Shown: piece after piece, positions 23,234-34,932 of the stretch | How the letters are laid out: each line of letters opens with the position of its first letter | Numbering within the stretch: the stretch's first letter is position 1 | Assembly (NCBI GenBank): GCA_937892945.1 | Contig: CALBIL010000059.1 | Coordinates: forward strand, 49,457 to 113,456 | DNA: 64,000 nt | Origin: an uncultured euryarchaeote | GTDB taxonomy: Archaea > Thermoplasmatota > Poseidoniia > Poseidoniales > Poseidoniaceae | Reading direction: 5' to 3' | Program-made: the position numbers and the translations under genes | The notes under the pieces: model-generated | Database searches by the model: none | Seen by the model: the letters and a program-made list of their open reading frames with translations, nothing else | What the model was told of the DNA's origin: nothing

Positions 23234-24100
23234 CTACTCTTCTTCATCATTTATGGTTAAATCAACGAAGGAAACCCCTGTATCGGTTGTCTCGAGGTCA
23301 AGAATCTGCCCTTGAGGGATTTCATACGGATCTCTCGCCGAATGCAAAACACTGCCATCAGGGTCTGCTTCGATGAAATATGCCTCAGCCCTCGCCACAG
23401 CTCGTTCGAACCCAGGGGCATTACCGTCCGCTAGAGCCCCTCTGGCCACTTCCAAATCAAAGTGGGCATGCTCGACGGCCTTCTTGGCCTGTTTCACGTT
23501 CCATTCCTCCGAATCCGGTGTATTCACCATTCGCTTCTGCACCGCTTTTCCTTGTTCTTCAACCATGAATATGTGTTCATCAAACACAGAGCGAGCCGTT
23601 TCAAAGGCTTTTTTCCAAGCCTCTTCATTGGATTCAGGAGACACATCAGCTCCTTCCTTGGCGAGATACTTCCGTGCCGCCGAGATGTGGGAAAATTCCC
23701 ACGGGCGATGTCCAAGCGATGCGGAAAGGTCGAACAGTAATCGAGCGTATGATTGCGGTGAACCTTTGAGCACAATTCGGTTGAGATACCCCGAATTGAA
23801 TAAACCAAAGCCCCAGTAAGCGTCCGAGGAGATAATCAAACCCAATCCTCCGCTTTGGGTCTGAAATTTCCATTTCTGTTCATTGAATTGCGGTGGTTCA
23901 GAAAAGTGAGGCGTTTCGGGGTGTTCGAGATAGGCCAAAGCATGCGTGGCAACATCTCCGAGGTAAACCACCTTACTCGGTAAACTGAATGATTTTGGTC
24001 TCAAAAACCCAGTGTCGTTTTCAACCCGATGATTGGCTTTTGCCTGGCCTACTTGAGCATAGACTACGAGTGTCCCCCCACCATACTCTCGGTTGCTCAT
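23234..24100 (-). CDS. conserved hypothetical protein
   Basis: Start MSNREYGGGTLVVYAQVGQAK at 24100; upstream ORF extension is antisense to the next gene. Confidence 0.65.
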   Translation of the reverse strand: MSNREYGGGTLVVYAQVGQAKANHRVENDTGFLRPKSFSLPSKVVYLGDVATHALAYLEHPETPHFSEPPQFNEQKWKFQTQSGGLGLIISSDAYWGFGLFNSGYLNRIVLKGSPQSYARLLFDLSASLGHRPWEFSHISAARKYLAKEGADVSPESNEEAWKKAFETARSVFDEHIFMVEEQGKAVQKRMVNTPDSEEWNVKQAKKAVEHAHFDLEVARGALADGNAPGFERAVARAEAYFIEADPDGSVLHSARDPYEIPQGQILDLETTDTGVSFVDLTINDEEE

Positions 24101-24203
24101 GATACTCCGGCTCCTCCACACACCATCAATTCGCCGCCTTGTGACAAACTGGTGGAGAGAAGAATTGATGAGTCTCACCCGCCATGGAGGGATTGGTGAG
24201 CCA

Positions 24204-24740
24204 ATGGCTGTAGAGGGTAATTCAAAAATCGACGCGTTAACAGCACTTCCAGGCATTGGAGCAGCAACTGCAAAAAAACTGGTCAGTGCAAAGATTGATT
24301 CAGTCACAAAGGTTGCTTCTGCAAGTTCTAAAAAACTCCAAGATGCTGGCCTTAGTGCTGCGATTGCAAAGAAAGTAAGTGCTGCTGCTAAGATGGCCGA
24401 CAAAGCCTCGGGTGCGGCAAAGAAAGTCGCCTCAAAGGCAAAGGCGGCGACCAAATCTGCCGGTAAGAAGTCCTCTTCTACTGCTAAAAGTACTGTGGCA
24501 AAAGCAAAGGCGGCTGCCAAGAAAGCAACAGTCGCCACCAAGTCAGCATCGAAGAAGGCCGCCTCGAAAACAAAAGCCGCTGGAAAGAAAGTTTCAACGA
24601 AAGCATCGGAAGCCAAGAAATCAACTCTTTCCAAGGTCAACCATACCGTCAAATCCTCCAAATCTTCTGATGGAAGAAAAGGGTCAACGCTCCGAGTGCC
24701 ACGCAAAGTAACCGATATGCCATGGTTCAATAAAAAGTGA
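24204..24740 (+). CDS. helix-hairpin-helix protein with histone H1-like Lys/Ala/Ser-rich C-terminal tail
   Basis: IDALTALPGIGAATAKKLVSAKIDSV HhH; AKKVASKAKAATKSAGKKSSSTAKSTVAKAKAAAKKATVATKSASKKAASKTKAAGKK tail. Confidence 0.85.
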   Translation: MAVEGNSKIDALTALPGIGAATAKKLVSAKIDSVTKVASASSKKLQDAGLSAAIAKKVSAAAKMADKASGAAKKVASKAKAATKSAGKKSSSTAKSTVAKAKAAAKKATVATKSASKKAASKTKAAGKKVSTKASEAKKSTLSKVNHTVKSSKSSDGRKGSTLRVPRKVTDMPWFNKK

Positions 24741-24981: not shown

Positions 24982-26079
24982 TCATTCAATGCCGATCGAA
25001 CTGGTTGATGGCGTGGTCTCGATGAGTTCTTCTTTCCCATGCATGGTTGCAGCTGCAGCCGCCTCGATCGTTTCACGTGTTGCTTGAGCCCGATGATAGA
25101 CTTCACGTAATGTTTGGTCAGAAATTTCAAGATAAACACGAGTCGTCGCAATACTGGAATGACCAAGGAGACGTTGAATTGTAACTAAATCGGCTCCTCG
25201 TTCCAACAAACCAGTTGCAAAATTATGCCGCAAAACATGCGGTGTCAATTTCCCCTTTGGAAGCCCTGCTTCGACAGCGAGTGAATCCATCAGGCGTTGA
25301 ACGCCACGTGGTTGTAGGCGTCGACCTGCAGAATTCAGGAGAAAGGCAAAGTCATCATCGCGAACACGAGCATCTCGAATCGGAATCCAGGCATGAATAC
25401 GTGCAAGAGTTCTTCGTGTAAAGAGTACTAATCGGTCTTTGTCACCTTTCCCGCCATAGACGCGAGCCGAACCATCTTCGAGATCGATGTCATTTCGATC
25501 AAGGTTGCATACTTCACTGACTCGTAAGCCAGTGTCAAGCATCATTGTAACAACGATTGAGGCTACGGGGTTTTCACTTCTTGCAGAGGCATCCAAAACC
25601 ATCGACATCTCTCTTCGGTTCAAAGTACGAGGAAGACGTTTTCCAGTTCGTGCTCGAACCAAATGATCAGGCCAACGGTGCCCGAGCCATTTGAGGAGAT
25701 GTCGAGCAGCAGCGAGACGTGCATTGTACGTAGTTGGTCGCAAGTCCGATAATCCATGTGTCCATCGGTCCATTCGTCCACTGAGAGGTTCCATTCGTTC
25801 TGCTAATTCATACACCGTTGTTGCTTGGTATTCCGCTTCACTCAGAACATTTTCTCCGGGAAGAGTTGTTTCAATTAAGGCACGTAAACCACTGGCATAG
25901 GACTTTTGAGTATTCAGCGATTTATTTTCAGCCTTAAGCGTCTGCATATAACAGACGAGCCAAGGTAAATCTTGCATGTGAATAAGTCGCGGCGGAAGCA
26001 CAACTGAGGCATCATTGAGCCGTAGTTGGCTCGGCCTCAAAGCCTTGCGATTTCGCTCCTCTCCTCTCCGTGTGTTCAT
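24982..26079 (-). CDS. tyrosine recombinase XerA/XerC/D-like
   Basis: MLDTGLRVSEVCNL, HVLRHNFATGLLERGADLVTIQRLLGHSSIATTRVYLE (R..HxxR..H..Y). Confidence 0.92.
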   Translation of the reverse strand: MNTRRGEERNRKALRPSQLRLNDASVVLPPRLIHMQDLPWLVCYMQTLKAENKSLNTQKSYASGLRALIETTLPGENVLSEAEYQATTVYELAERMEPLSGRMDRWTHGLSDLRPTTYNARLAAARHLLKWLGHRWPDHLVRARTGKRLPRTLNRREMSMVLDASARSENPVASIVVTMMLDTGLRVSEVCNLDRNDIDLEDGSARVYGGKGDKDRLVLFTRRTLARIHAWIPIRDARVRDDDFAFLLNSAGRRLQPRGVQRLMDSLAVEAGLPKGKLTPHVLRHNFATGLLERGADLVTIQRLLGHSSIATTRVYLEISDQTLREVYHRAQATRETIEAAAAATMHGKEELIETTPSTSSIGIE

Positions 26080-26224: not shown

Positions 26225-27466
26225 TCAAGCATTTGTTTCTTCAGCAGAAGATTCGTTGAAGTCTTTCAGTGGCTCGTCGAGCATTGCTTGACGAAGAGAG
26301 GCTCTCAGTTCGGTAAGTTCACCGTAACAAATCAGCACATCCTCGTATCGTAATTGAAGTTCATTCGATGGATTCCACAATAAACTGTTGTCACGAGAAA
26401 GAGCAAAAACGGGGATATCGGCCTTTGATTTGAAAACACTTGCAAGTGTTTGGCCAACGAATTTTGGATGGTTACGAATTTGAAGCGAGAGGACTCCAGC
26501 GCCAGGGACCGTCCGGAGTAATTGGTCAAGATCGACTTCTGCAAAAGCAGTTTCACTTGTGACATAATCAATAATTTCTCCAGCGACATTAACGCCACTT
26601 GCTTTCTCGATACCTTCGAGCCCAGGGGAGGAATTGACCTCAAGAACCAACGGGCCATTTCTCGATTCAAGTAAATCAACGCCAGCAATATGCAGTCCAA
26701 GGACCCGTGCTGCTCGGCATGCAGCCTCTTCGAATTCTTTTGGCAAATCTACGTTTTCAACCGTTCCGTTGAGGTGATAATTACTCCTAAATTCTCTTCC
26801 ACGTGCGCGTCGACGCATACTCGCAACGACGCGGTCTCCAACTACAAATGCCCGAACATCTTTACCATGAGATTCAGCAATGTATTCTTGAATCAAGATT
26901 GAACGGCCAGTAAGTAGCAATCCTTGGACAAGATTACGAGCTTCTCGAATGGTATGACGCAAAAACACACCTTGTCCTTGAGTTCCTTGTGTGACTTTGA
27001 TCACAACAGGTAATCCACCGACAAAATCAACTGCAGTTTCAACATCAATGATGTCACGAACATAGGTGGTACGAGGTACGGGGATTCTGTTTCGAGCGAG
27101 AATTTGCGTTGCATGGAGTTTATCTCGACTTTGAAGAATACCCGTTCCAGTGTTTGCAGTCCAGATTCCGAGTTGTTCAAGATGGCGGAGAACGGCAACA
27201 CCATGTTTGGTGATGGAATGTCCTATGCGCGGAATTACTGCGTCAAAATCGAATAACTCGCCGTTGTGTAAAATATCAATCATGCCATCAGCAACGAATA
27301 ATGAAAACTTCATTGGGTCTGCAACATAAGGGTCCAATCCCCGTTTCCGGGCCTCTTCGACCAATCTTCTGGTACTGTAGAGGCGTGGGCCTCTTGAGAG
27401 GATGGCAATACGAAGGTCGACATCACGCGATGCCCCCTCCGTATTCTTCACGCTATACTCCTCCAT
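26225..27466 (-). CDS. RimK-like ATP-grasp ligase with C-terminal TrkA_C (RCK_C)-like domain
   Basis: LPVVIKVTQGTQGQGVFL, DVRAFVVGDRVVASMRRRA, LVLEVNSSPGLEGIE; C-terminus SLQIRNHPKFVGQTLASVF...IPVFALSRDN...LRYEDVLICYGE. Confidence 0.87.
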   Translation of the reverse strand: MEEYSVKNTEGASRDVDLRIAILSRGPRLYSTRRLVEEARKRGLDPYVADPMKFSLFVADGMIDILHNGELFDFDAVIPRIGHSITKHGVAVLRHLEQLGIWTANTGTGILQSRDKLHATQILARNRIPVPRTTYVRDIIDVETAVDFVGGLPVVIKVTQGTQGQGVFLRHTIREARNLVQGLLLTGRSILIQEYIAESHGKDVRAFVVGDRVVASMRRRARGREFRSNYHLNGTVENVDLPKEFEEAACRAARVLGLHIAGVDLLESRNGPLVLEVNSSPGLEGIEKASGVNVAGEIIDYVTSETAFAEVDLDQLLRTVPGAGVLSLQIRNHPKFVGQTLASVFKSKADIPVFALSRDNSLLWNPSNELQLRYEDVLICYGELTELRASLRQAMLDEPLKDFNESSAEETNA

Positions 27467-27520: not shown

Positions 27521-28519
27521 ATGACCGAAGCAGTGGCAGTGGGCGTTCGTGAAAAAACCACTCCCGATGTTGACCAAGAGGAAATTGAAGAAACCCTCAC
27601 TTTGGACCAACGTAAAGAGGAATTAAAAAAGTCGCGCTGGAATGTGTTTTTGTGGCTTGGCATCGCAGTTTTGATGTTCACATTTGCGCTTTTCCCAATG
27701 CCATTTAGTGCCGATTATGATGACTTTAGCAATTCAGTTGAGAAAGATATTGGATTTGTATGGGGTCCTTCTTTACCCGGTGATGATTTGTTCGATGCCC
27801 CCCTTCATCTGAACGTGTTGGCATCGAATCCACCGACTCATTCAGAGATACGCCTTGATGCATACGTGATTAAACAAACCAATTGCCAACAAAACCTCGG
27901 AGTGTTCACCGAAGAAGCAAAACTTGGAACAAATCACGCTTATCAATACCAGTTCATTGATTCCTTAATTGAAGGTGAAGAATATACCTTCAAATTTTCA
28001 GTTGACCCAGGGCAATATTGTGTCATTGTTCAATATTTCAACGAGACAAGCGGTGAAGTGGATAAAACCTCGGTTAACGACATGTCTCTTAAGGGGCAAA
28101 TGTGGCCAAATCAAGTGATTGGTGGTCTCTTCGGGATAATCTGCCTTTCCTTGTCAGCGTTCGCCTTTATTGGAGCCCAAAAGCACGGCGCCCATGTCAA
28201 ACGAATTCTTGAAAACGGTGACGAATCAACTGAAGAAAAAGTACTGGCCTCCCTCACCGGTGCACGGGTTGCAGCCGGCCCAACCGGTCCTCCAAGCCCA
28301 GGTCCTGATGGCCCCCCACAAGCTGATGAAGCACCGATGGCACAGGCAATAGAGCCCGCTGAAGAAATCGCTCCAGTGGCATCAGAACCCGTTTCCTCCG
28401 AAGCCATCTTCGAACCGGCAGAAGGTGGATATTTCTTCAAGAAATTATCAGACGGTAGTTACGAGCAAACGGTGTATGTTCAAAATGCCGATGGATCTTA
28501 TACCCCCCATGAAGGCTAA
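27521..28519 (+). CDS. hypothetical two-TM membrane protein
   Basis: TM segments VFLWLGIAVLMFTFALFPMPF and QVIGGLFGIICLSLSAFAFIGA; C-terminal GGYFFKKLSDGSYEQTVYVQNADGSYTPHEG. Confidence 0.7.
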   Translation: MTEAVAVGVREKTTPDVDQEEIEETLTLDQRKEELKKSRWNVFLWLGIAVLMFTFALFPMPFSADYDDFSNSVEKDIGFVWGPSLPGDDLFDAPLHLNVLASNPPTHSEIRLDAYVIKQTNCQQNLGVFTEEAKLGTNHAYQYQFIDSLIEGEEYTFKFSVDPGQYCVIVQYFNETSGEVDKTSVNDMSLKGQMWPNQVIGGLFGIICLSLSAFAFIGAQKHGAHVKRILENGDESTEEKVLASLTGARVAAGPTGPPSPGPDGPPQADEAPMAQAIEPAEEIAPVASEPVSSEAIFEPAEGGYFFKKLSDGSYEQTVYVQNADGSYTPHEG

Positions 28520-28616: not shown

Positions 28617-30794
28617 ATGTCGGACGAGCAAACATCTTCTTTGACAGTTGCAAAACTCAAAGCATTATGCATCCTTAATGATTTACCCACTGGTGGGAAA
28701 AAATCAGATTTGGTCGAACGCCTGCTCGACTCCGGCCTTTCAAATCAAGAAATCGGGCTCCCCTCAAAAGCCAAGATTCAATCCGTTTCAAAGCCCAAGA
28801 AAGAGGAGGCACTGGAAATCGAACCAGAAGAACAAATTGTTCTTTCGATGGAAGATGAAGATACCATCACTCCTCCTAAAAAACAAGATGCTGTAGAGGT
28901 TGATGATCAGTCCGGGGAAGAAAATATTCTTGATGCCGAGATATTAGATGGGGAGTTTGTTGATGACGACTCTCCTGCAGTTGTAAAGAAAACGAACCCT
29001 AAAGCCGTAAAAAAACAGGTACGCGAAGGCCCTGCCACCCTCCTCGACCTCATTCAAAAACCACAAGTTGCTGCAGTTCTGTTAACATTGATTATCATCG
29101 GCGCGGGCGGCTATTATTATTTAGACAACCAACTTGATTCATTTACTGCTGAACAACTCCGATATGGCGACAGTATGCAGTACCAAATTACCGGTGATGA
29201 AAATGGCCTGGCCACCTTCCTTGCTACAGAAGGCTTTGTCGAATTGGTCATGGACCAACTTGAAACCGATGACGATATTTGTAAAATTTCTCTTGACTTT
29301 GGTGGCTCAGGCAGTCTTTCCATCACTGATGGTGGTACGAGCGAATTAGTCAATGAAGGAGGCTCAACTGACCGATTAGGAGCAGTACGTGTGGTTGGAG
29401 GCATGGGTGCAGAGTGGCTTGCCGTTGAAACAATCAATACGAATTCTTTGAATCCATTCCGTGTTCACCGCCATCTTTCTGTAGGGAGCATCTGTGAATT
29501 CGGAGCGATCACTGGTTCAGGGACCGCAGACCTTTCTTCGACAAAGTACATCGAACTACGAAATCAAGATACGAAAGCAACAGAGTTGAATTGGGGGTTC
29601 GACCTCCCTTCTCCAATTGGCAAATACCAGGGAACGACGGTGAGTTATGGCGTTGGAGGATTACTCGGCGGACTTGAGACGCTTGCGCCAGGGCTCGCTT
29701 TAATGATGCAACCTGTAGAAATACAACACTTATTTGCAAACGACCTCATTGACAAAGAAGCCACGGGAAGTAATCTTGGATGGGATTGGCGCGTTATCGG
29801 CATCGATGAATACGGAGGAAAACCTGCTTGGAAAATTGTCGCTACACACCACGATATCGAAGCATATTGTTTAGGCTCTGCAACGATGAATTTGTGGGTT
29901 GAAGAAGGAAACCCTTGGGCAGCAAAACAAACAGTCGATGTTTTGATTTCAGAGGAGCAAACCGGACAATCAGGCTGTTCTCCAGCCTCTCAATTACTGA
30001 ACGATTATGTCTTGCCTGAAGGAGAATTAGAATTACACCACACCTTTGCCAAGACCTCATTGACTCGAGGACAAAAGCAACTGGACCTTGGTTTGACGTA
30101 TGCTTCTAAACCTCAAGCGAATCAACTCGGTCCGTCAAACAGTGAATTAGAAGCATGGAGTGAATATGAACTTCATATGCCCGATGATTCAACGCTTCGT
30201 CAGCACACCTTTGAAAATGCTCTTGCCTGTTTCGAAGAATGGCCAAACACAATTGCCCCTGGAGCATCCAGAGCCCTTCAAGAAAACGGCTACATTTGGC
30301 GCGGTACAACCCAGCAGATTTCGTCATCCGTATCGCAGTGGAACCTTTCCTGGGTGGCCTCCGATGAACAAGCAGGATGGGTACAATTCAATCTCACTGG
30401 AGTGCCAAATGCAGAAAATTGCCAATACGACAAAAGAGGCGACTTAGATTTGACCGCTTTCAACCGGGATTCAATCCCCAATACATTCAATATTACCGCA
30501 CTTGAATCATGGTTTTCAGAGTCATCTCGCTATGATATGTTGTCTGGCTCAGAACGCTTTTTTACCGCTTCAGGTGACTATCAAGATGATGTACAGGTAG
30601 GCTACTTAATCGCAGTCCCAGGGAATGACATCGGTTCAATTCTCTCACAAATCGGCGATGGCGGAGATGGAGCAGTCACTCTTGATCTTTCACGAACATG
30701 GGATGAAAATGGGGAACACAAACAATTGAATCTTATTGCGGATGCGGCAGAAGGCCGACTTATTGGTTGGAGTCTGATTACCAATCCAGTGTAA
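28617..30794 (+). CDS. SAP-domain membrane protein with large C-terminal extracytoplasmic region
   Basis: SLTVAKLKALCILNDLPTGGKKSDLVERLLDSGL = SAP; TM VAAVLLTLIIIGAGGYYYL; start TTG/GTG/ATG cluster at 28611-28619. Confidence 0.78.
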   Translation: MSDEQTSSLTVAKLKALCILNDLPTGGKKSDLVERLLDSGLSNQEIGLPSKAKIQSVSKPKKEEALEIEPEEQIVLSMEDEDTITPPKKQDAVEVDDQSGEENILDAEILDGEFVDDDSPAVVKKTNPKAVKKQVREGPATLLDLIQKPQVAAVLLTLIIIGAGGYYYLDNQLDSFTAEQLRYGDSMQYQITGDENGLATFLATEGFVELVMDQLETDDDICKISLDFGGSGSLSITDGGTSELVNEGGSTDRLGAVRVVGGMGAEWLAVETINTNSLNPFRVHRHLSVGSICEFGAITGSGTADLSSTKYIELRNQDTKATELNWGFDLPSPIGKYQGTTVSYGVGGLLGGLETLAPGLALMMQPVEIQHLFANDLIDKEATGSNLGWDWRVIGIDEYGGKPAWKIVATHHDIEAYCLGSATMNLWVEEGNPWAAKQTVDVLISEEQTGQSGCSPASQLLNDYVLPEGELELHHTFAKTSLTRGQKQLDLGLTYASKPQANQLGPSNSELEAWSEYELHMPDDSTLRQHTFENALACFEEWPNTIAPGASRALQENGYIWRGTTQQISSSVSQWNLSWVASDEQAGWVQFNLTGVPNAENCQYDKRGDLDLTAFNRDSIPNTFNITALESWFSESSRYDMLSGSERFFTASGDYQDDVQVGYLIAVPGNDIGSILSQIGDGGDGAVTLDLSRTWDENGEHKQLNLIADAAEGRLIGWSLITNPV

Positions 30795-33700
30795 TTACTT
30801 CCATCGGTTGGTCTCCCAATCGTTGCTTGGAGGTGGTGCATACTGACTCATTTGTGCCAAATCCGGAGCTGTTGGAACATCAGCATATTTCGGCGGTGGA
30901 ATAAACAACGGTGGTGCTTGCTTTGGTCGTACTTGTTGCCGCGAAGTAGAATTTTGCCGTCGAGAAAACAAAAGTATTACGGTAAGTAAAACCACGGTAC
31001 TTCCAAGTGCCATTATCATGGTGTTTGAGTCAAAACCCCAAGCATTCTCATTGGTTTGAAGAGCCCCTTCATCGTCGGTTTCTTCGATAACAGGCGGGTG
31101 CCATACAGTGTAGGTCACCAGCCATTTGATTTCGATAGACCCGGTATTGTCGGAAAGAACGACTTTGAGTTCATAGGGCCCTACTGTACCATTTAAAGCG
31201 CAAAGTTCTTGAGAAAAGGGGCTCGTTGGTGACTGACAATCATGGGGGACTTCTCCCCAAAAAAGCCCCTGGCCAATCATTGACTGATTTCGATACCACT
31301 GAGATGTAAGGTTGAGTCGTTGAATTGCCAGAGCATCAAGGTCGAGAATCACACCGAGGTCAAGAGATTCATTGGTGGCATTGAGCAATATACTTGTCTC
31401 AAAGGGCATCACAATAATCCAGTCAGACCGGTTAATTCCTTCATCGACCTCTCCGTCACAATTTTCATCTACGCCATTCCAATCCTCGATTGCATTCGGT
31501 GAACGGCTTGAGTCGTTATCGTCACAATCCAAGAACCATCGGAAACCATCTTGGTCAGCATCAGGATCAGGGACAAATGGATTCGTAAGAGTCGTAATGA
31601 CTTCAGTCCCATCTCTCAAACCATCATCATCGGTATCTGCATCAAATGGATCCGTTCCTGTTTCGAGAAATTCAACAAGGTCGAGCAGTCCATCCGCATC
31701 CGCATCCGTGCCGATGAATGTTTCATCTATTTCCTCATCACAATTGTTATCGATTCCATCTAAGATTTCTTGTGCATTCGGGAATATGCTTGCATTGGTA
31801 TCATTGCAATCTGTGAACCAATAATATCCATCCATATCAGAATCATTGTCTTTAACTAAAGGATCAGTCAGATGAATTAATACTTCTTGTCCATCATTCA
31901 AGAAGTCCCCATCGGTATCAGATGTCGAAAGATTGGTTCCATAGATATGGAATTCTCCATAATCCGAGAGTCCATCATTATCTGTATCGGTTGCATTGAA
32001 TCCTTCATCCCATTGCCCATCGCAGTTGTCATCGATTCCATTGAGTACTTCCAGGGCACCTGGGTACACCATGGCGTTTGTATCATTACAATCTTCAAAC
32101 CAATAATAGTCATCAATATCTGCGTCAGGGTCAGGTATCAGGGGGTTGGTCCCATAGAGCAGGACTTCTTCCCCATCGAGTAACAAATCATCATCGGTAT
32201 CGTTATCCAAAGGATCGGTGCCATTGACGTAAATCTCTACTCCATCCGATAAGCCGTCTCCATCTGTATCTGCGATTAACGGGTCAGTGCCATACACCAG
32301 CACTTCCGCTCCATCATCGATGGAATCATCGTCGGTGTCGTAATCTTCAGGGTCGGTACCATAAATCTCCGTTTCATTGGCGTTTGTGAGGTTATCACCG
32401 TCTGTATCAAGGTCGATTTCAGTACCATACAGAATCAATTCCCATGCATCAAGCGACCCAGTATCACCGTTTCCTTGATCTTCAACAGTAAGCGTCCATT
32501 CCCCGCGACTGTCTTCATCCCAATGGTGAACGGTTGAAAACCGCCAGTTATCGTAGTTGTTCCCGCTATCATCATGCTTTTCTGAAAGAACACTTTCTGT
32601 TCCGTCAGGGCTCGTTAAAATTATTTCTAAGTCTCCGCGAAATGCGTGAGGAATGTCGACGATAACGTCTACATTTTCAATCAGGATTGCTTCGGAAACC
32701 GTGACGTTAACAGATACGAGATTCGCACTGTTATCTGGAATATCACATTGAATACAATCCAATGTACCTGAAGTTGTTGAAGTTTCATTCGCAACGGAAA
32801 CCCACGTCGCAGCCATAGACACAGCAGCCCCGGCATCGATCACGCCGTAGCCGTATTTGTGGCTCACATCATGGTTGGCGCCATTGATGTTCCATGACTG
32901 GTCTGAAGCATCATTTTGTCGAGAGGTCAAGACCAAAATATGTTGCACATCTCTCCACGACAAGTTTGCGTTTGCCTCTAACATCAATGCTATAATGCCA
33001 GAAACAAGAGGAGTTGCAGATGAAGTGCCCCCAAAAGTATCGGTATAGTCGTTATTGGTATACCCTCCAGAGCCTTCAATGTCTGTCGTAGTAATGCCTT
33101 CATTATCACCGTTTGAAGGAGAGGCAACCAAGATATTAGCACCCGGTTCAGCATAGTAGGATTGGTCACCATTGTGCGACACCGCAGTCACTGCAATGGT
33201 GTACCTTAGATTCGCGTATCCATCATAATTTGAATTATCATCACCGGTTAACCCATTGCCTGCTGCCCATGTGATGATATTCCCTAATCCATTTCGGCCC
33301 AACAAAGCATCGTTTTCCATTGCTGCAAGCATCAGTGGTCCGGGAGCTTCAAGCGTTTCTCCATTGTCGCTTGGCCCCCACGAATTTGAATAAATATCGA
33401 TGTTTTGACGCTCATGGCCAAGCGCTGAAGATTCACGGACATCGGTAGTGCTACAGGAAATTAACTGTAATCCGGCGAGTCCCGCTTCAGGGGCCGATCC
33501 ACTGACTCCAATGTTGTTGTTACCAACACCGGCAGCAACGCCGGCTGAGGCTGTCCCATGTGCATTATTCGAAGAGGGAGTAGGGTCCGCATCGTTATTA
33601 CAAAAATCATAATCGAGCGTCGATTCGTAATAATTATCCAAATCAGGGTGGTTCCAATCAAGGCCATCATCTACGATTCCGATGACGATACCTGCGCCTC

Positions 33701-34223
33701 TGTAGGTATTCCAAGCTCCTGTAATATTGACATCTTCACCACTTATCCCACTCGATTGTCCTGTGTTTTGAAGGTGCCACTGGTCAGGAAACTTTGGGTC
33801 GTTGGGCACCCAACGCGGGAGCATTTCCTGCTCTACCAAAGGATAGGCAGCCTCAATATCTCCATTCTCTCGGAGTTGAGTGAAAAGTTCGGGAGCAGTG
33901 GAAGGGTTGACATCAACAATCCATGCACCGGCTAGTTCTTTTGCAGGCTCACCAGCATACTCCGATGCAATGATGACCCATTGGTTCGCAGACTCTAATT
34001 GCGTTTCTGAATAGATTGAAAGGTCGCTTTTATGGGCGAGAGCCGCCTGAATTACGGGGGAATAAGAATCGACGATCCGTTCATCACTTGCTTCTAATAC
34101 TTCAGTTTCGAGAGATTCAGAAGAAAGAGAAGTAAATGCGCTTACCATTGGTGAGAGCAATGAACATACCAGTACAAACAGTATTGCACAAGTGCGCATA
34201 CTTCCTTGTCGAGCCTGTTCCAT
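30795..34223 (-). CDS. secreted subtilisin/kexin-like serine protease with P-domain, TSP3 and MopE-like repeats, C-terminal TM
   Basis: Triad VGIVDDGLDWNHPDL / NAHGTASAGVAAG / GGTSSATPLVSG; P-domain; DTDGDGLSDGVEI repeats; three DCNDTN...NGIDDNCDGQWDEG units; C-terminal TM. Confidence 0.92.
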   Translation of the reverse strand: MEQARQGSMRTCAILFVLVCSLLSPMVSAFTSLSSESLETEVLEASDERIVDSYSPVIQAALAHKSDLSIYSETQLESANQWVIIASEYAGEPAKELAGAWIVDVNPSTAPELFTQLRENGDIEAAYPLVEQEMLPRWVPNDPKFPDQWHLQNTGQSSGISGEDVNITGAWNTYRGAGIVIGIVDDGLDWNHPDLDNYYESTLDYDFCNNDADPTPSSNNAHGTASAGVAAGVGNNNIGVSGSAPEAGLAGLQLISCSTTDVRESSALGHERQNIDIYSNSWGPSDNGETLEAPGPLMLAAMENDALLGRNGLGNIITWAAGNGLTGDDNSNYDGYANLRYTIAVTAVSHNGDQSYYAEPGANILVASPSNGDNEGITTTDIEGSGGYTNNDYTDTFGGTSSATPLVSGIIALMLEANANLSWRDVQHILVLTSRQNDASDQSWNINGANHDVSHKYGYGVIDAGAAVSMAATWVSVANETSTTSGTLDCIQCDIPDNSANLVSVNVTVSEAILIENVDVIVDIPHAFRGDLEIILTSPDGTESVLSEKHDDSGNNYDNWRFSTVHHWDEDSRGEWTLTVEDQGNGDTGSLDAWELILYGTEIDLDTDGDNLTNANETEIYGTDPEDYDTDDDSIDDGAEVLVYGTDPLIADTDGDGLSDGVEIYVNGTDPLDNDTDDDLLLDGEEVLLYGTNPLIPDPDADIDDYYWFEDCNDTNAMVYPGALEVLNGIDDNCDGQWDEGFNATDTDNDGLSDYGEFHIYGTNLSTSDTDGDFLNDGQEVLIHLTDPLVKDNDSDMDGYYWFTDCNDTNASIFPNAQEILDGIDNNCDEEIDETFIGTDADADGLLDLVEFLETGTDPFDADTDDDGLRDGTEVITTLTNPFVPDPDADQDGFRWFLDCDDNDSSRSPNAIEDWNGVDENCDGEVDEGINRSDWIIVMPFETSILLNATNESLDLGVILDLDALAIQRLNLTSQWYRNQSMIGQGLFWGEVPHDCQSPTSPFSQELCALNGTVGPYELKVVLSDNTGSIEIKWLVTYTVWHPPVIEETDDEGALQTNENAWGFDSNTMIMALGSTVVLLTVILLFSRRQNSTSRQQVRPKQAPPLFIPPPKYADVPTAPDLAQMSQYAPPPSNDWETNRWK

Positions 34224-34230
34224 ATTAGCA

Positions 34231-34932
34231 CTACCTCTCTTCTGTTGGCAATTGGCCAGATAAGCGAAGAGCAAGTGCTTGCAGCGTTTCATCGTTCTTT
34301 TTCAAGGTCCGAATATATCTTGCAATAGTGTGGTTGGATTGAGCGAGGTCATCAATGGAGCCCACCCATTCCAGGGATTGGCTCGGGCGTGTTAAAGATG
34401 CAGAATCTGAAGAATGAACACTCCAAACCGAACAACCACTTCCGTCTTCAGATGCAGTCTGCAAGCACCATTGCTGCGGTAATGGAGATGCTTTGCACTT
34501 CAGAGAATGCCTTTCTGTGAACCGAACAAGACAATCATGTTCGATATACGGTGCTCCCATTTCCTCTAAGGCTTGTCGGGATTGCTCATCCTCGGCCCCC
34601 AATTGAAACCATACCAGTGGGAAGTCATCACGCTCAAAACGAATTATGAGTTTACGGATAACTGCCCGTGAACGTTCTGGGGCGAGGAACAAAACCACGA
34701 CTTTTGGTATGACTCCCTCATCGAGTTCAGGCCGTATCGGAAACCCTTCAATTGTAGCGCCTCCATCGTTGATATGAATCGGCGCAATAGCCCATCCGCG
34801 TCCTTTCAATTCAGACACAGCAGAATGAGCTGGCCGTTCTGTGTTGAGGCCAGCACCGTAGATATGAATGACATCAACCGAGGACAAGGTCGATGTGAGT
34901 TTGATAATATCGCCTTCATCCCGAGAATCCAT
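34231..34932 (-). CDS. CoA-binding domain protein (YccU-like)
   Basis: VIHIYGAGLNTERPAHSAVSELKGRGWAIAPIHI; FPLVWFQLGAEDEQSRQALEEMGAPYIEHDCLVRFTERH. Confidence 0.65.
   Translation of the reverse strand: MDSRDEGDIIKLTSTLSSVDVIHIYGAGLNTERPAHSAVSELKGRGWAIAPIHINDGGATIEGFPIRPELDEGVIPKVVVLFLAPERSRAVIRKLIIRFERDDFPLVWFQLGAEDEQSRQALEEMGAPYIEHDCLVRFTERHSLKCKASPLPQQWCLQTASEDGSGCSVWSVHSSDSASLTRPSQSLEWVGSIDDLAQSNHTIARYIRTLKKNDETLQALALRLSGQLPTEER

Follow-up and report, generated by a model that had tools for sequence, protein, structure and literature searches.

Among the genes of the window (the whole 64,000 nucleotide stretch of DNA that was analysed, from an assembly of 2.03 Mb in 100 contigs) is one encoding a membrane protein, here called SAP-TM. 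The protein has an N-terminal SAP domain, an acidic linker, a single transmembrane (TM) helix and an ectodomain of about 550 residues (Table 1), a layout that was proposed in the preliminary description and is confirmed by Pfam, charge counts, hydropathy and AlphaFold2 (AF2). The AF2 model, run on an input alignment of 35 sequences, predicts the helix-extension-helix of the SAP domain (helices 11–20 and 29–38, pLDDT about 66–84), disorder over residues 52–143 (pLDDT below 50), a TM helix at residues 149–170 and a mostly well-folded ectodomain. Orthologs align at the ATG, which rules out a wrong start or a spurious open reading frame.

Table 1. Genes of the SAP-TM locus and segments of the encoded protein, in window coordinates.
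Feature	Position	Strand	Basis or remark
XerA-type tyrosine recombinase	24985..26079	-	only PF00589 match in the genome; persistent neighbour
RimK-family ATP-grasp ligase	26228..27466	-	persistent neighbour, between xerA and SAP-TM
Membrane protein directly upstream of SAP-TM	27521..28519	+	in f1, detectable in part of f2
SAP-TM gene	28617..30794	+	ORF and translation; ATG at 28617, stop ending 30794, 725 aa
SAP domain, residues 7–38	28635..28730	+	Pfam PF02037, invariant columns, AF2 helices
Disordered acidic linker, residues 43–120, net -17	28743..28976	+	charge count, AF2 pLDDT
Linker motif ILDAEI, residues 104–109	28926..28943	+	ortholog alignment columns, pattern count
Basic juxtamembrane stretch, residues 121–150, net +5	28977..29066	+	charge count; kept in f1 only
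Single TM helix, residues ~151–171	29067..29129	+	hydropathy; AF2 helix
Ectodomain part 1, residues 174–505	29136..30131	+	AF2, Foldseek, invariant columns
Ectodomain part 2, residues 506–725	30132..30791	+	invariant columns, AF2; no relative found

The gene neighbourhood and distribution of SAP-TM

The best solved relative of the neighbouring recombinase is XerA, and its best NCBIfam match is the archaeal XerA model at 188 bits, under the strict cut-off of 220. Relatives of the window retain the series xerA, rimK-like ligase, (membrane protein), SAP-TM. Two families of the same order were compared, the window's own (f1) and a sister family (f2). The order xerA, rimK, SAP-TM is present in 18 of the 20 f2 loci, the two exceptions (L072 and L078) starting too close to a contig end. 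Neighbourhoods were scored by tblastn, with the SAP-TM gene of one locus (L084) detected by alignment instead. The outer flanking genes (S8 protease, nadC, HHH protein and gcvH) were not found in the 20 f2 loci. XerA functions in chromosome dimer resolution, and the persistence of xerA beside SAP-TM therefore lends circumstantial support to a role connected with the chromosome. Because SAP-TM is read from the other strand, it does not share an operon with xerA and rimK. Elsewhere in the window, positions 24093–24737 (+) encode a 215 residue, possibly chromosomal protein in which an HHH_5 domain precedes a histone-H1-like tail rich in Lys and Ala. The gene at 30798–34292 (-) encodes a large secreted S8 protease that lacks a SAP domain; it contains a P-domain, TSP3 and MopE-type metal-binding repeats and, at the C-terminus, a TM-like stretch.

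Full-length SAP-TM orthologs were found with a whole-protein profile in 57 of 61 Poseidoniales genomes, both families and the window's own genome included. The same profile found the ectodomain in none of approximately 135 other genomes of the phylum sample; its non-ortholog matches cover just a SAP domain or a short stretch at the N-terminus, so that no homolog with the ectodomain was found beyond the order. SAP-TM is single-copy, its ectodomain matching no second locus in its own genome, where the only paralogous similarity is through the SAP domain. The nearest named relatives are from uncultured Ca. Poseidoniales and Ca. Poseidoniaceae, at 73–90% identity (7 from a single-protein scan), which places the host among the Marine Group II archaea.

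The domains of SAP-TM and their placement

The sole Pfam match in the protein is to PF02037, at 33.4 bits (E 3.2e-8) against a curated cut-off of 23.9. When nine non-orthologous SAP domains from Poseidoniia were used to build an HMM, the SAP-TM N-terminus scored 42.9 bits and the highest score among 2000 shuffles of its 150 residues was 6.9, which excludes a chance match. The domain is present in all 35 aligned orthologs. Its residues L14, G27, K29 and R35 are invariant across both families, and with them the G-x-K and R of the SAP signature. The SAP domain is the slowest-evolving part of the protein. Within f1, mean pairwise identity falls from 0.79 in the SAP domain to 0.60 in the ectodomain and 0.38 in the linker; the pN/pS values of 0.19, 0.35 and 0.56, respectively, are to be read as relative only, because of near-saturation at synonymous sites. 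Among solved structures, the best relative is the SAP domain of yeast Tho1, which binds dsDNA and not dsRNA (PMC4909252). The net charge of the SAP domain is +1 in SAP-TM, against +3 in the aligned Tho1 segment.

The linker ranges in charge from -8 to -41 among the orthologs. Despite its fast divergence, the pattern [ILVFM][DE]AE[IVFL] is kept in 33/35 of these, with A107 and E108 of the ILDAEI motif nearly invariant. The motif, a hydrophobic residue followed by [DE]-A-E-[IV], is also seen in other proteins of these archaea, where it lies in the cytosolic tail of an S8 peptidase, of an M28 peptidase and of a P-type metal ATPase. The ATPase (L128, G000:C68; a 905 residue ORF on the minus strand) has no SAP domain, and its N-terminal cytosolic tail has two short stretches in common with the SAP-TM linker, LSLDDDDELETP and EVLDAEILDA. 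Within the window's genome, SAP-TM and the P-type metal ATPase are the only proteins with the motif in an acidic membrane-protein tail. A genome-wide membrane sorting signal was considered and rejected, as only these two of 10 DNA-pattern matches lie in such tails and the others are chance-like.

The 25 residues before the TM helix contain 3–8 K/R in 16/16 f1 rows. The basic patch of the preliminary description therefore holds for f1, but is absent or weak in many f2 members. Likewise, the TM flanks are K/R-rich on the N-side and K/R-poor on the C-side in 16/16 f1 rows and ambiguous in f2. All six invariant Cys of the protein are in the C-terminal region. In the M28 peptidases of the same lineage the SAP domain is N-terminal, ahead of the TM helix, whereas in the S8 peptidases, which have an N-terminal hydrophobic signal, it is C-terminal and follows the TM helix. 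SAP domains are thus predicted to be cytosolic in unrelated membrane carriers of either orientation, wherever the topology is predictable. The position of the TM helix near the N-terminus, its basic N-flank in f1, the ectodomain Cys and the common side of the SAP domain in these carriers together support a predicted topology in which the N-terminus and SAP domain are in the cytosol and the large C-terminal domain is outside. This agrees with the orientation first proposed and contradicts a SAP domain outside the cell.

The ectodomain contains most of the invariant residues of the protein, including Cys 222, 293, 418 and 454 in part 1 and Cys 538 and 602, with several Trp, in part 2; it is inferred from these Cys that the ectodomain probably contains disulfides. 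Modelled alone, part 1 is predicted to be beta-rich (pLDDT 85.6, pTM 0.84). Its best Foldseek matches are DUF1849, DUF1329 and LolA3, with RseB and LmcA lower down, at probabilities up to 0.97 and E 2.3e-4, yet with TM-scores of 0.18–0.30, an rmsd of 18 A and about 10% identity. The model may weakly resemble the LolA-like lipid/lipoprotein-binding superfamily fold, which is offered as a lead only. No LolA/DUF1849-type family HMM in Pfam matches the ectodomain, and in NCBIfam there is a sub-threshold match to another family only; PADLOC and PDB sequence searches likewise gave no known family. No relative of part 2 was found by sequence, and parts 1 and 2 are without profile similarity, which argues against an internal repeat.

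SAP domains across the class

SAP domains are numerous in this class. Nine matches are present in the window's genome, eight of which are over the curated cut-off, and 4–9 copies are found in each of the 32 sampled genomes of the class; of 86 genomes from elsewhere in the phylum, 10 have one or two weaker matches. Pfam verified the domain in two ribosomal proteins, N-terminally in eL32 and C-terminally in eS1/S3Ae, as well as at the C-terminus of an FKBP-type PPIase, internally in Pus10, in a Zc3h12a-like NYN RNase and in M28 and S8 ectopeptidases. It is also present on small membrane proteins whose Zn-ribbon match is below threshold. The domain is often joined to its carrier by an acidic linker, and its net charge ranges from -4 to +6 across the lineage. 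In the window's own genome eL32, eS1 and FKBP have SAP arms (L001, L002 and L003), as they do in the other genomes of the order examined. A 598 residue ORF of the same genome (L009) encodes a soluble protein in which a weak match of 23.4 bits, just below the cut-off, comes after SAP-like stretches. Two S8 ectopeptidases of another genome (L129 and L130, G039), with a cytosolic C-terminal SAP domain, are the mirror image of the SAP-TM layout.

The presence of SAP domains on many unrelated proteins, two of them ribosomal, means that binding to AT-rich DNA should not be assumed. No paper in the open-access literature searched links the SAP domain to Poseidoniales or to Marine Group II, and none describes it on a PPIase, on surface peptidases and on the two ribosomal proteins. 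This class-wide grafting is a separate, unexplained trait of the lineage. A possible common ligand of these domains, whether DNA, RNA or protein, is the key question.

Possible roles of SAP-TM and known systems

It is plausible that SAP-TM tethers nucleic acid at the membrane, since the SAP fold is supported and the domain is placed in the cytosol. The best explanation, put forward tentatively as its probability is somewhat short of even, is a flexible membrane tether with a SAP tip that grips DNA or nucleoprotein, DNA binding being putative. In this reading SAP-TM, a single-copy, order-wide, single-pass membrane protein, would have its N-terminus in the cytosol and its C-terminus outside. The SAP domain, placed at the end of an arm that is long, acidic and disordered, would take a transient grip on chromosomal DNA or on nucleoprotein bound to DNA or RNA, and the gripped material would thereby be kept at the membrane. 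The ectodomain, stabilised by disulfides, could be an anchor in the cell envelope or a responder to the envelope, and may bind lipid or a lipidated partner.

This tether reading is favoured by the presence of the SAP domain in every ortholog as the most constrained region, with its invariant G-x-K and R; by the dsDNA binding of the Tho1 domain and the predicted cytosolic placement of SAP in unrelated membrane proteins; and by the kept order of xerA, rimK and SAP-TM, with the sole PF00589 recombinase of the genome being XerA-like. Against it, a net charge of only +1 and a very acidic linker would disfavour tight DNA contact, the need for DNA tethering is not obvious for eL32, eS1, FKBP and Pus10, and xerA and rimK are not co-transcribed with SAP-TM. 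The main rival to the tether is a docking module with a common non-DNA partner. Here SAP would be a lineage-specific dock for a shared protein or RNP partner (for example polysomes, or translation and quality-control factors) that is recruited to the membrane, without a chromosome tether. The abundance of SAP in the class against its scarcity elsewhere, the variety of carriers (the NYN RNase as well as the ribosomal proteins, FKBP and Pus10, besides membrane proteins) and the near-neutral SAP charge and acidic linker of SAP-TM all suit docking, and the range of charges across the lineage fits a shared fold more than uniform DNA binding. The SAP on ribosomal proteins also leaves RNA or a common protein partner as a possible ligand. 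However, no candidate partner is known, the signature G, K and R are kept, and the solved domains nearest to it come from nuclear proteins, the one from Tho1 binding DNA. Docking is a possible but doubtful explanation.

The ectodomain, being the bulk of the protein and bearing most of its invariant residues, may have an envelope function of its own, with SAP as a localisation tag that confines the protein and has no chromosome function. Ectopeptidases of two unrelated families have the same cytosolic SAP tail, but a tag alone does not account for SAP being the most constrained part, and this explanation is improbable. It is also improbable that SAP-TM is a transmembrane sensor, the ectodomain binding a lipid or envelope ligand and signalling through the cytosolic SAP tail in the style of RseB/RseA or ToxR-type proteins. 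The weak likeness of part 1 to the LolA superfamily, with RseB and LmcA among the Foldseek matches, is in keeping with a sensor. However, the domain model gives TM-scores of mostly 0.2–0.3, sequence-specific regulators are not known to use SAP as their domain, and the long disordered linker offers no evident path for a conformational signal. For the coupling of an external signal to DNA, raised in the preliminary description, no support was found.

A broader proposal, which is unlikely, is that the Poseidoniia have evolved a SAP-based system for organising nucleic-acid machines together with the membrane. The SAP tails of ribosomal proteins, ectopeptidases and the xerA-linked tether would touch the nucleoid or polysomes, as an archaeal counterpart of the HeH/LEM anchors for chromatin at the inner nuclear membrane. 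Marine Group II archaea are uncultured and are described as the most abundant planktonic archaea in ocean surface waters (PMC6461757). How the archaeal nucleoid is held relative to the membrane is largely an open question. SAP-TM may attach the chromosome, or a different nucleic-acid machine, to the membrane and, lying beside the sole Xer recombinase, is a concrete and cheaply testable candidate for such a link.

Several known systems have features in common with SAP-TM. RodZ, ToxR and CadC-type proteins are bitopic bacterial proteins in which a DNA-binding-type domain at the cytosolic N-terminus is followed by one TM helix and a C-terminal domain outside. They share the layout of SAP-TM but use an HTH or winged-helix domain rather than SAP. 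The possible likeness of part 1 to LolA, DUF1849, DUF1329 and RseB would lie in a predicted large beta-sheet with capping helices; TM-scores and identity are low, and no family HMM matches. The SAP domains (PF02037) of Tho1, Hcc-1/CIP29 and DEK are the same domain by HMM and predicted helices, however these are soluble nuclear proteins and no solved SAP match is membrane-anchored as SAP-TM is. The nearest analogue is the eukaryotic family of inner nuclear membrane proteins Heh1/Src1/MAN1, which have a HeH/LEM domain and function in chromatin tethering; in fungi, the HeH domain is able to bind DNA directly (PMC4810098). Like these, SAP-TM is predicted from its sequence to have an N-terminal domain of helix-extension-helix type and a membrane anchor, placed on the chromatin side. 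Heh1/Src1/MAN1 have two TM helices, an MSC domain and both termini in the nucleoplasm, whereas SAP-TM has one TM helix and an unrelated ectodomain, is in the archaeal plasma membrane and has no sequence relationship to them past the SAP-type fold. Neither a second TM helix nor an MSC domain was found in SAP-TM by hydropathy, Pfam or AF2. SAP-TM should therefore be seen as a putative analogue of the Heh1/Src1 family by architecture, rather than a member of it by descent.
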